Notes under the pieces: model-generated
Told to the model about the DNA's origin: nothing
The model's database searches: none
What the model saw: only the letters and a program-made list of their open reading frames with translations
Position numbers and translations under genes: made by a program
DNA from: a virus
Direction: 5' to 3' (one strand)
IMG/VR virus record: IMGVR_UViG_3300021085_003174
Coordinates: 1-55,903 of that record
DNA: 55,903 bases
Shown: in pieces, positions 4,143-55,903 of the stretch
Position numbering within the stretch: position 1 is the stretch's first letter
How the letters are laid out: every line of letters starts with the position of its first letter

Positions 4143-6865
4143 AGATTTTCTACAAGTTCTCCGAAGTTACGCATAATAATACCGGCACACGCATTTGCTT
4201 CGTTCTCTATATCACTTCCTGTTTCACCACTATCCACTTCAAGAACTCCAAGTTCATTTTGTTTTTGATGCACCATTTCATGTGCTAAACTTCTACATAC
4301 ATCTGGAAATGCTCTGCCTTTTGTATATATAGAAATCTCATTTGTGTTTGGATCATAACAAGCAGCTGTCATATGCTCATGTCTTTGTGTTAAAAGTTTA
4401 ACCGATACCTTTTCTTTTAATTGCAATGCTTTTCTTGCAAACTTGATAAACTCTTGAACATTGTCTTTGTTCATTGCGACTTCGTTTAATGATTCTTTTG
4501 TATATTTCATATCTGGATGTTTGGTATCTGAATTGTTTTTGGAAATTATTTTATCATTAGAAAAGGATTCCGCAGGAATGTCATTACCAAGATACATTTC
4601 TTTGAATTCCTTAAACCATTGGCCAAAAGTAAAATCACCGATTCTTAATCCATAATCGTGAATGGTTTGTTCTTTAAAGTGATTTGCAACTCCACCTATA
4701 AAGTGATAATAACTTCCACTCTTCTGTACTTTCACATTCGGAAATCCTTTGTCTTTTAACATTTTGGAAACTTGTGCACCAGATTTAGGTGATGACTTCA
4801 TATTGATTTCTTGTATTTTCATTTCGTTTATATTTGCTCCACCTGTTCTGACAATTTCACGAAAGAACCAACGAGTCCACTCTCCGAGTTTGCCTGGTCC
4901 TTTTACTATATATAGTTTAAATGCTTCTGCAAATGCTTCTTCCGGATTTGTATTTCCGTAATTAGTAATATGTTCAATTGGAATTTCTTTACCAGGTCCA
5001 ACCCACCTATCTGCTAATTTTGTTACAACTTCTTTTTTATTTTCTGCTGACCAAACAGATGTCATTTGCAATGCTTTGAACTTTGCTTTGGTCTCGGCGT
5101 TGGTTTCTTTTTTATCAATGACTTTCAATCCTGCTCGTCTTTTATGTATCTTGCTTCCATTCTTATCAAAATACTTTTCTACATAATCCTCTACATCTTT
5201 ACGTTCAATAGATACCTTCTTGCTTTTGATTGTATCTTGCCAATGCTTCTTTGCATTAGATGGAACGTTGCGATACCAAAAACGATGTCCGAGTTCGTGG
5301 GTAAATGTATCTTGAGTCATTCCACATCCGTACAACTTGAGCATATCTTTATTCATATAATACTCACCATTAACCATATCGTTGCTATTATCGGATGTTA
5401 ATCCAAAATCTAAATCAACGGTTAATCCTTCTATACACTTTCCGAATCCTGCTTTTTGAATTTTCTTTGACCAACCTTTAATTCCACTTACTAAATCCTT
5501 GAAACTTTTTTCACGACTTGCTTCTCCTTGAGGACTTCCTCCTTTTCTTTTGAAGTTGTGAATAACCAACTTGACTGGTCCTATTTGTGCTTGCTCAATT
5601 GGTTTTTCTCGTTCTTGGTCACCTTCTATTGCTATGTATTGAAGAAGTGCTTTTATTCCCAAACGGAATTCTGCACGATACCTTCGAATATTTGTTTCTC
5701 GTTCTTTAGCAAGTCTACTTGGACTCACCTTGTGCTTTTTATCTATAAAGTCCCACATCTCTGGAAAGTTTCCACCAAGACCCGTAACTGCTCTCCAGCA
5801 TTTTTCACGAACTTCCTTTTCCTCCCAAGTTTCCATTTTATCACTGGCACCTTGCCATTTGTACTGCAAAAAGAATTTGTAAACCCATTGTTCAAAGTTT
5901 TCTTGGAATGTACCAAATGCTCTTCTTACTTTCTTAAAGTCTTTGATTGTCTGTGGGTCTTCACTATTATCACCAATTGATTTGTATGCTTTAGTAAGAG
6001 CTCTTAAATCCTTTGCCCACTTCTTTACTGAGTTGCTATCAACCTTTACTTTGCTTTCTGAAATGATTTCCGACAGATTACCTTTTTGTATATACATATA
6101 TAAACCTGCTAATCGTTTCTTAAACTTCTTGAGATATTTACTGTTGATATATGTAAGAAAGTCTTTATCAAAAAACTCTACATCAATTGCCCAATCTTGA
6201 AATGATTTGTAACTTTCTAATTTCTTCTTTTTAAAGTCGGCAAGAAATTCCGGACGATGTGCGAACCGATCAGATAGATTTTTCCATACACGAACTATCT
6301 GAGATTGTCCTGCTTGATAATATGCATTAAATTCTTCTGGTGTGTTGTAATATCCTTCTATATCTTGTGTATCTAAGTACTTGGCACTTGTTTTTCCTAA
6401 ACCACGACTACGATACCTCAAATGATCAAGAAAGTGTATATATTCGTGAATGAATGTATCTTTATCAAGACGAGTATCCATATACTTGCCATTGTAATCA
6501 CCAAGTAGATTAGCATTTACAATTACACCTTTAAATGATATTCCACCGACTTTCAAACTTTTGTTTGTGAAACCACCTGCGATTGTTACTCCACCACGTG
6601 ATGAACTTTTTGTTGGAATGAAAAATAATACTACCTCACTTAAAGACGGAAAGTTTTTATCTATGTCTGTTCCTCTAAGAGCAACACCTTTCCATTGTGT
6701 AAGTGGTATAAATGGTTTGTTGACTATACTATTCTCACCTTCACCTTCTAATTTATCTTTATGTTTAGTTAAAAACCGCACCACTTTATCATATGCTTTT
6801 TCGGCAATTCCTGTGTAATACATATCTTGCTCTACATTTGCTTCTTTTATATAGGTGCTATTCAT
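4133..6865 (-). CDS. Large protein with three HExxH metalloprotease-like modules
   Basis: The product is about 910 aa. Counting from a TTG one codon upstream of the chosen ATG (subtract 1 for the ATG), zinc-protease helices occur at HEYIH (141-145), HELGH (524-528) and HEMVH (863-867). Each is followed by a candidate third ligand: TPEEFNAY (about 177-184), NPEEAFAE (641-648) and ENEANA (about 888-893). The first two resemble the gluzincin HExxH...PEE-F/AE pattern; the third is a compact HEMVHQKQ...E-N-E-A type. Linkers are lysine-rich and helical. No signal peptide is seen. ATG at 6865 is preferred over TTG at 6868 because TATATTTAT-type boxes lie just upstream. It is probably a virion or injected protein, or one acting on host or capsid proteins; no substrate is evident. 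Confidence 0.85.
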   Translation of the reverse strand: MNSTYIKEANVEQDMYYTGIAEKAYDKVVRFLTKHKDKLEGEGENSIVNKPFIPLTQWKGVALRGTDIDKNFPSLSEVVLFFIPTKSSSRGGVTIAGGFTNKSLKVGGISFKGVIVNANLLGDYNGKYMDTRLDKDTFIHEYIHFLDHLRYRSRGLGKTSAKYLDTQDIEGYYNTPEEFNAYYQAGQSQIVRVWKNLSDRFAHRPEFLADFKKKKLESYKSFQDWAIDVEFFDKDFLTYINSKYLKKFKKRLAGLYMYIQKGNLSEIISESKVKVDSNSVKKWAKDLRALTKAYKSIGDNSEDPQTIKDFKKVRRAFGTFQENFEQWVYKFFLQYKWQGASDKMETWEEKEVREKCWRAVTGLGGNFPEMWDFIDKKHKVSPSRLAKERETNIRRYRAEFRLGIKALLQYIAIEGDQEREKPIEQAQIGPVKLVIHNFKRKGGSPQGEASREKSFKDLVSGIKGWSKKIQKAGFGKCIEGLTVDLDFGLTSDNSNDMVNGEYYMNKDMLKLYGCGMTQDTFTHELGHRFWYRNVPSNAKKHWQDTIKSKKVSIERKDVEDYVEKYFDKNGSKIHKRRAGLKVIDKKETNAETKAKFKALQMTSVWSAENKKEVVTKLADRWVGPGKEIPIEHITNYGNTNPEEAFAEAFKLYIVKGPGKLGEWTRWFFREIVRTGGANINEMKIQEINMKSSPKSGAQVSKMLKDKGFPNVKVQKSGSYYHFIGGVANHFKEQTIHDYGLRIGDFTFGQWFKEFKEMYLGNDIPAESFSNDKIISKNNSDTKHPDMKYTKESLNEVAMNKDNVQEFIKFARKALQLKEKVSVKLLTQRHEHMTAACYDPNTNEISIYTKGRAFPDVCRSLAHEMVHQKQNELGVLEVDSGETGSDIENEANACAGIIMRNFGELVENLYD

Positions 6866-46400: not shown

Positions 46401-46428
46401 ACCTTACACAAAAAAAAAATTATAAAAA

Positions 46429-54038: not shown

Positions 54039-54536
54039 ATGAAAAACTACGGATTAAATAAGTCCTACGGAACAGGACTAAATAAACACGTTCCAACTAT
54101 GCGAGACGAGTTTTTAACTCCATTTGACTCCATATTTGACAAAATGGTTAACCAGGCATTTCCAAATTTCGGCCAAGAGTTTGGTGTAAATTTCTTTGGA
54201 AATAGTTCATATCCACGGGTAAATGTAGCAGATACCAAAACCGAAGTAAGAATTGAAGCAGAAATAGCCGGACTAGGAAAGGATGATGTGTCAGTTGAAT
54301 ATGAAGATGGTATGCTCACTATCGCAGGAGACAAAAAGACTGAAATTGAAGATCCTGATGTAAAGTATGTGTATCGTGAACTTAAACGATCTTCTTTCAA
54401 ACGGTCATTTAAAGTAGACGAATCAGTCCTTCAGGTCGGCAAAATTACAGCCAAGTTTGACAATGGAATATTAAATGTAACCATACCGAAAAAAGAAGTC
54501 ACGGAAACTAAGTCAAAAAAAGTAAAGATAATGTAA
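54039..54536 (+). CDS. Small heat-shock protein (Hsp20/IbpA family)
   Basis: A 165-aa ATP-independent chaperone. The N-terminal phenylalanine-rich region is followed by an alpha-crystallin domain: YPRVNVADTKTEVRIEAEIA, VSVEYEDGMLTIAGDKK and a SSFKRSFKVDES-like strand, ending DNGILNVTIPKKE. Common in marine T4-like phages. A strong terminator follows. Confidence 0.95.
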   Translation: MKNYGLNKSYGTGLNKHVPTMRDEFLTPFDSIFDKMVNQAFPNFGQEFGVNFFGNSSYPRVNVADTKTEVRIEAEIAGLGKDDVSVEYEDGMLTIAGDKKTEIEDPDVKYVYRELKRSSFKRSFKVDESVLQVGKITAKFDNGILNVTIPKKEVTETKSKKVKIM

Positions 54537-54660: not shown

Positions 54661-55755
54661 ATGAAAACATTTACAGCAATTATAGGTTTTCTTGCCCTTG
54701 CGGTGGCTGGTACAGCTGCTTTCTTTTCTGTCCGTGGTATTGGTTTATTATTCGCAGGTGCGGCTATCGCAGCTATGGTAATGGCTGGAGTTTTAGAAGC
54801 AGGTAAACTTGCTATGACTTCATTTTTATATCGGTATTGGGAAAGAATTCCACGAATGTTGAAGTGGTATTGTACTGTATCTGTTGTTGTTTTGATAGGA
54901 ATAACTTCACTTGGTATTTATGGATTTTTAAGTGATGCTTATGACGATACACGTTCTCGGGTAGAAATGCACGAAAGTAACATCGAAACACTAAACAAAG
55001 AAATAGTTGTAATAGAAACTGAAATTGAAACACTAAAAAACACAGATGTAACCGTAGAAGATAAAAAGACAGAAACAATTGCAGGATTTCAAAAAATTTA
55101 TGACGATTATGTCGCAGATAGAAGAGCAAGACAAGATGCATTATCTTTACGCAATAAAAGTGATACTGAAGCAAGAACCACTCGCAGACAACAATTACTT
55201 GATCGTCTTTCTGTATTAGACTCTACAAAAACTGCAATAGAGTCTAAGGGTGGTGGGTTATTTTCAAGCAATAAAAAGAAACTTGAAGAACTAAGAGTTG
55301 CTCAACAACCAGAACGAGATTCAATTGCATCTTCTATGTCATCTATTTCAGAAGAAGAAACATCCGCAACAAAACGATACAATGATACACTTGCAAAAAT
55401 AGATGAAGAGATTTCAACGGAATATGATAAATTTGTGGAAAAAGTAAACGGACTTCGTGATACAACAAACGATTTAGATAATGTATCTGTTATTGAAGAC
55501 AAATACACCAAGATAAAATCAAACCAAGCAGAAATACTAAAAGAAAAAGAAGGAATCCGTGCAACTGATATTGGAAGCTTCCGTTTCATTGCAGAGTCTT
55601 TTGGTATGCCAGTCGATCAGGTTGTCAAGTGGTTTATTATCGTTATTGTTTTAGTTTTTGATCCAGTTGCAGTTGCACTTGTGCTTGCTTATAATATTAT
55701 GGTAGGTGGAAAAATGACTCTTGGGGAAGAGTTACCGAAAAAAAAAATTGGATAG
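54661..55755 (+). CDS. Membrane protein with long coiled coil (364 aa in frame 0)
   Basis: N-terminal hydrophobic segments (about 5-50 and 72-92) precede a long charged coiled coil (about 95-300). Then comes another membrane segment (WFIIVIVLVFDPVAVALVL, about 326-346) and a short tail ending ELPKKKIG. A good SD (AGGAG) precedes the ATG. It ends at a stop 5 nt after an A10 run where the -1 frame is open, so a longer product is likely. Similar membrane coiled-coil proteins occur in other large marine phages; the function is unknown. Confidence 0.85.
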   Translation: MKTFTAIIGFLALAVAGTAAFFSVRGIGLLFAGAAIAAMVMAGVLEAGKLAMTSFLYRYWERIPRMLKWYCTVSVVVLIGITSLGIYGFLSDAYDDTRSRVEMHESNIETLNKEIVVIETEIETLKNTDVTVEDKKTETIAGFQKIYDDYVADRRARQDALSLRNKSDTEARTTRRQQLLDRLSVLDSTKTAIESKGGGLFSSNKKKLEELRVAQQPERDSIASSMSSISEEETSATKRYNDTLAKIDEEISTEYDKFVEKVNGLRDTTNDLDNVSVIEDKYTKIKSNQAEILKEKEGIRATDIGSFRFIAESFGMPVDQVVKWFIIVIVLVFDPVAVALVLAYNIMVGGKMTLGEELPKKKIG

Positions 55756-55903
55756 ATAACCTACCATTTGCCGATACGTTGCAAAAAGACGGTGACTTTG
55801 AGGAGGACGAATATGTTGCTATATTAGAAACACCCACCCCAACCCCAGAACCACCAACTCCCACTCCATCGCCAACTCCCACCCCCACTCCAACACCAAC
55901 ACC
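55738..55903 (+). other. -1 frame extension with Pro/Thr repeat, continuing past the window
   Basis: From the A10 run (55738-55747) the -1 frame has no stop to the end of the window. It encodes an acidic linker (NWIDNLPFADTLQKDGDFEED) and then a Pro/Thr-rich repeat (TPTPTPEPPTPTPSP and on). It contains no ATG or GTG start. It is therefore best read as the 3' part of the upstream gene, joined by ribosomal or transcriptional slippage. Confidence 0.6.

Follow-up and report, generated by a model that had tools for sequence, protein, structure and literature searches.

The T6SS gene tssM of Citrobacter rodentium carries a run of 11 A's (A11) at which transcriptional slippage takes place at a level of 20–25%; both forms of the protein and their ratio are needed, and the A11 run is found in C. 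rodentium and Y. pseudotuberculosis (PMC4256274). In dnaX (tau/gamma) of Thermus, Chlorobi and E. coli, recoding at a poly-A run or at A_AAA_AAG yields short and long isoforms, and direct as well as mirrored layouts occur among the relatives (PMC3711429, PMC5009743). In phages, a −1 shift near the 3' end of the gene gives rise to the lambda-type gpG/gpGT pair and is conserved for the product ratio, and frameshifting adds Ig-like domains as C-terminal extensions to a fraction of a phage protein (PMC5009743).

Here, we describe a gene of T4-like phages that compares with these systems as follows. As in tssM, the product is an inner-membrane protein (in our case predicted), the poly-A run lies shortly before the frame-0 stop, and a minor fraction of the product would gain a C-terminal part; however, tssM is a bacterial secretion gene of unrelated sequence with a run of A11, and its C-terminal part is periplasmic, whereas that of the phage protein is predicted to be cytoplasmic. 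With dnaX it would share the two isoforms and the presence of both layouts among relatives, but dnaX encodes a DNA polymerase subunit, is unrelated in sequence and, in its E. coli form, uses an SD and a stem-loop. The likeness to gpG/gpGT lies in the phage origin and in a putative −1 shift near the end of the gene; in contrast, gpG/gpGT is a tail-assembly chaperone with a different slip site, and the present gene encodes a membrane protein and has Hsp20 and a gp55-like sigma as neighbours. Finally, the Ig-like cases are virion proteins that receive an Ig fold, whereas here a membrane protein would receive a Pro/Thr (P/T) tether and a short conserved domain. The kind of mechanism is already known (dnaX, tssM) and the gene family is new to that kind; in the part of the literature covered, we found no paper on this phage membrane-protein family.

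The stretch of DNA analysed (the window) is a whole IMG/VR virus record of 55,903 bases, a fragment of a T4-like virus that ends within the P/T repeat and encodes a phage DNA polymerase of PHROG 262 as well as Hsp20 (Table 1). The frame-0 product of the gene under study is here called the head. Ten A's near its end are read in frame 0 as AAA AAA AAA A(TT) GGA TAG, and the slip site lies 27 codons 3' of the start of an FDPxA motif. The preliminary description had placed the run and the stop correctly, and its −1 frame, open from 55695 to 55903 with neither ATG nor GTG, was found as described, with the addition of a single TTG at 55779. A second A10 in the window (46410–46419) is intergenic and has no frameshift layout.

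Table 1. Features of the membrane-protein locus; coordinates refer to the window.
Feature	Coordinates	Strand	Basis
Hsp20 gene, directly 5' of the head gene	54039..54536	+	profile search
Frame-0 ORF, 364 aa (head, short isoform), ends PKKKIG-stop	54661..55755	+	sequence
Last membrane helix, with family motif VVKWFIIVIVLVFDPVAVAL	55612..55707	+	sequence, alignment, AF2 model
SD-like GGGGAAGAG, ends 6 nt 5' of A10; kept as GGAGAAGAG in the main clade only	55723..55731	+	relatives
A10 slip site, CCG AAA AAA AAA ATT GGA TAG, contains in-frame A_AAA_AAA	55738..55747	+	sequence
−1 frame, conserved tail start NWIDNLPFADTLQKDGDFEEDEYVAILE	55746..55829	+	relatives; synonymous fraction
Frame-0 stop TAG, 5 nt past A10, kept in all group I relatives	55753..55755	+	sequence, relatives
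−1 frame, Pro/Thr repeat, cut by the record end	55830..55903	+	sequence, relatives

The AlphaFold2 model of the head is all helical (mean pLDDT 79.7). From hydrophobicity and basic loops, we predict three N-terminal membrane helices, a long coiled coil outside the cytoplasm, a fourth membrane helix and a C-terminus inside the cell; the prediction that the product is a phage inner-membrane protein is part of the best explanation of the locus. The head had no match above the curated cut-offs in Pfam or NCBIfam, no clear match in PHROGs and no PDB match at E ≤ 0.001 in the fold search; profile and fold searches returned only uncharacterised phage proteins and weak coiled-coil matches (an Rz-like spanin PHROG, DUF4407). 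Gene order is conserved as HD-domain gene, Hsp20, head gene, small membrane coil protein and gp55-like sigma, and is common to group I (the close and mid relatives, see below), group II and several in-frame relatives; the small membrane coil protein, the gp55-like sigma and, outside the window, the HD-domain gene were named by eye. A role in lysis was considered and rejected: peptidoglycan genes adjoin some distant relatives, but inconsistently, since the neighbours in group I are the Hsp20 and gp55-like sigma genes. The best-supported statement of function is that a single gene would supply a membrane protein in two versions, with and without the tail, at a set ratio.

For close and mid relatives, a protein scan of viral contigs provided 40 loci (group I), to which later profile scans added L155–L158. 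These relatives span three deep clades, with heads 64–99% identical to that of the window. All contigs long enough to include the junction (about 40, from 37 metagenomes) show a run of exactly ten A's and retain the frame-0 TAG in the context TTGGRTAG; exact A10 was present in 22 of 22 distinct slip-site contexts, and the positions flanking it vary on both sides while the run itself is invariant. The pattern CCG-A10-TTGG occurred in 38 stretches of a 2.9-million-contig viral collection, 37 of them in the head gene and one unrelated, and the exact slip pattern did not occur in the bacterial and archaeal genomes searched. L157 and L158 read CCC-A10-CTGG.

Beyond the run, the −1 frame of the relatives encodes a tail of 180–360 aa that starts with EKKNWIDNLPFAD..., includes NWIDNLPFA, continues as a P/T repeat whose length varies widely and closes with a conserved end of about 60 aa (STPMYD...GPYYVPWKK..M...GST.GNV). 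Over 27 distinct 45-nt stretches past the frame-0 stop, codon pairs with a single difference were synonymous in 62% of cases in the −1 frame, as opposed to 22% and 12% in frame 0 and the third frame, respectively, and on the strength of this comparison the −1 frame is under protein-level selection. The change from ATT to ACT after the run in L155–L158 is likewise synonymous in the −1 frame (AAT to AAC) and nonsynonymous in frame 0. A search of annotated phages with the conserved segments of the group I tail, joined together, gave no match. Two relatives (L032 from 4083 and L034:4092-5162) carry within the P/T tail a cysteine-containing, folded-looking domain of about 110 aa (YSGEY...WQGKPAWVKRCEGSCSDEY...), for which no relative was found in annotated phages. 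L025:300-1396 has the N-terminal part of its head out of frame (the match length of 1097 is not divisible by 3), probably through an indel. The window and six other contigs (L005, L006, L012, L014, L017 and L021) end within the P/T repeat, where assembly breakage is thus frequent and leaves the tail unseen.

Among the more distant relatives surveyed, a run followed by a −1 extension also occurs with other tails. All members of group II have A9 in the site TTA AAA AAA AAG TC, which ends in A_AAA_AAG, and their −1 domain reads DxDGDGSIDG...WINDQNAVNYW; group III has A10 or A11 directly 5' of the stop and a −1 tail with ...LYWEKDD.NPNQ..YDL; and in L212, A10 is followed by G and TAG. Sister genes (L252, L260 and L256 among them) carry the group II tail domain in frame, with identities mostly of 63–74%, and L295 does the same for the group III tail, which indicates that these tails belong to the same protein, reached either in frame or via −1.

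A mirrored arrangement was observed in 28 heads with in-frame tails, which retain A9–A11 at the junction in a codon phase that leaves the tail in frame (L260, TTA AAA AAA AAC; L228, GAA AAA AAA AAC, A10; L229, GAA AAA AAA AAA, A11). In most of these sisters a −1 slip meets a stop within 1–5 codons, so slippage would give the short form. Among the matches listed, whose frequencies are not population estimates, 119 distinct heads comprised 43 with a run and a −1 extension, 28 with an in-frame tail and a run, and 48 with an in-frame tail and no run; the switch is therefore not essential to the family. On a quick, approximate tree of the 119 heads, in which L212, L338 and L175 are long branches and tail recombination is possible, the extension state changes at least nine times, eight of these changes being forced by well-supported branches. 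Of the cultured distant relatives checked, those carrying the FDP motif had the tail in frame and lacked runs of nine or more A's. Head homologues also appear in bacterial genome records (L345–L419; Verrucomicrobia/Opitutales, Bdellovibrio, Pseudoalteromonas), many of them extending much further at the C-terminus, and the run-plus-extension layout was not seen among them. In two relatives from other large phages (L202 and L204), a T9 run about 20 nt 5' of the head stop, near the start of the next gene, is possibly another slip point.

As a control, runs of nine or more A's were counted in the family and in its neighbours. There were 59 in 120 kb of family coding sequence versus 12 in 595 kb of non-family ORFs from the same loci; five of the 12 turned out to lie in family genes that the filter had overlooked, and the corrected figures (about 64 in about 125 kb versus about 7 in about 600 kb) give a density some 40 times higher in the membrane-protein family. 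Similarly, KKK was written AAAAAAAAA at 28 of 78 family sites versus 4 of 161 in the control, where at least two of the hits come from family genes that are cut short; the share of AAA among Lys codons was 77–78% in family and control alike. On these figures, such runs are avoided by the neighbouring genes and kept by the membrane-protein family.

Taken at sequence level, these observations make it very probable that the A10 is a site of programmed poly-A recoding, by a polymerase or a ribosome route, that yields a short and a long isoform. The proposal of two products from one gene, made in the preliminary description, gains strong support from the conservation of the A10, the frame-0 stop and −1 coding across three deep clades, from the same layout with other tails and from the in-frame homologues of those tails; the comparison of homologues brought out both a conserved slip site (group I) and in-frame fusions (sisters of groups II and III). 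Ordinary decoding would stop just past the last membrane helix (PKKKIG*) and give the short form, and at the A10 a fraction of expression would shift to −1, adding the disordered P/T tether and the conserved peptide of about 60 aa, an end that is predicted, from the inferred topology, to face the cytoplasm. The likeliest course is slippage of RNA polymerase on the run, whereby some mRNAs would carry 11 A's and give the long form by normal translation; slippage of ribosomes on A_AAA_AAA may add to this or be the principal route. By analogy with dnaX and tssM, the run would set the ratio of short to long. That the slip takes place in vivo, at what level and by which route, we infer from sequence.

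With respect to the route, we lean slightly towards RNA polymerase as the first choice over ribosomal −1 frameshifting, because no conserved RNA structure was found and the SD-like motif is kept in one clade only. All runs that precede a −1 extension have 9–11 A's, and polymerase slippage calls for about 8–9 or more A/T; in E. coli reporter assays of three poly-A cassettes, longer runs gave higher efficiency, with 63% for 11 A's, 40% for 9 and 10% for 7 (Antonov et al. 2013, PMC3711429). Together with the slippage known in tssM, the loss of the SD and the lack of a 3' structure, run length and these reporter figures modestly favour the polymerase. Purely ribosomal frameshifting at A_AAA_AAA, or at A_AAA_AAG in group II, on a homogeneous transcript and with an SD-like stimulator in the main clade, is nonetheless quite possible; it concerns the route only, and its probability is included in that given to recoding as a whole. 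The heptamer is in frame in all extension cases, so this route fits equally; group II ends in the heptamer of dnaX, and the tail is always in the −1 frame, a uniformity of direction that slightly favours the ribosome. The slippery heptamer proposed in the preliminary description is present, although a run of 9–11 A's, never the minimal 7, fits polymerase slippage at least as well. The upstream SD-like motif proposed there also exists in the window and the main group I clade, where pairing reaches about −5.5 to −6.6 kcal/mol, but as a conserved helper it did not hold beyond that clade: pairing is near 0 to −3 kcal/mol in several others and absent in L029, L032, L241, L293 and L280, so that the upstream stimulator is not conserved across clades and groups and would be at most accessory. 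No conserved downstream stem-loop was found among 20 sequences (consensus −1.77 kcal/mol, covariation term 0), which also argues against a ribosomal route. The invariance of the run does not by itself choose between the two, since every A is constrained by overlapping codons.

If the run were instead altered by slipped-strand replication, the tail would be toggled between phage individuals by DNA phase variation. Poly-A tracts can vary, and the run of L302 in group III (about 4445–4454) is A10 where the near-identical L300 and L301 have A11, the sole variant seen in that group; its frame 0 would enter a third frame and would not reach the tail by −1, and it may be a sequencing error, a true variant or a broken copy. 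We consider phase variation improbable, given that no A9 or A11 variant occurs among the group I contigs and that the mirror sisters with 9, 10 and 11 A's have their codon phase adjusted.

A sequencing or assembly error, in which the true run would have 11 (or 8) A's within one ordinary ORF, had been raised in the preliminary description; homopolymers are error-prone and L302 differs from its sisters by one A, but an identical A10 in so many metagenomes despite many other differences, the retained TTGGRTAG and the same layout in independent extension groups contradict it and leave it very improbable. The recurrence of the arrangement in distant relatives points to a real genetic switch and not to a sequencing mistake. 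It is just as improbable that the P/T frame is translated as an independent gene from a start codon of its own, since the one available TTG is not kept in the relatives, the −1 frame of L155 runs for 131 codons without ATG, GTG or TTG (in L157, the first is met 120 codons downstream), and sister genes join the tails of groups II and III to the head in one frame.

As to how the proposed recoding may have evolved here, we tentatively suggest, as an idea with less in its favour than against it, that the membrane-protein family, widespread in T4-like and larger phages, keeps a poly-A slip point to switch its cytoplasmic tail at the level of RNA, that it moved repeatedly between encoding the short form, with the long form made by slippage, and the reverse, that the sequence of the tail was replaced meanwhile, and that the ratio may answer to the phage-modified RNA polymerase in the course of infection. 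The mirrored layouts of sister genes amount to a natural experiment in which to ask whether the isoform ratio is under selection, and they make polymerase and ribosome slippage directly testable. Standard annotation would call such genes short and miss 180–360 aa of conserved coding sequence. If the proposed recoding is true, a large and recurrent phage family, outside the capsid and tail genes, would join the small set of well-supported examples of poly-A recoding.
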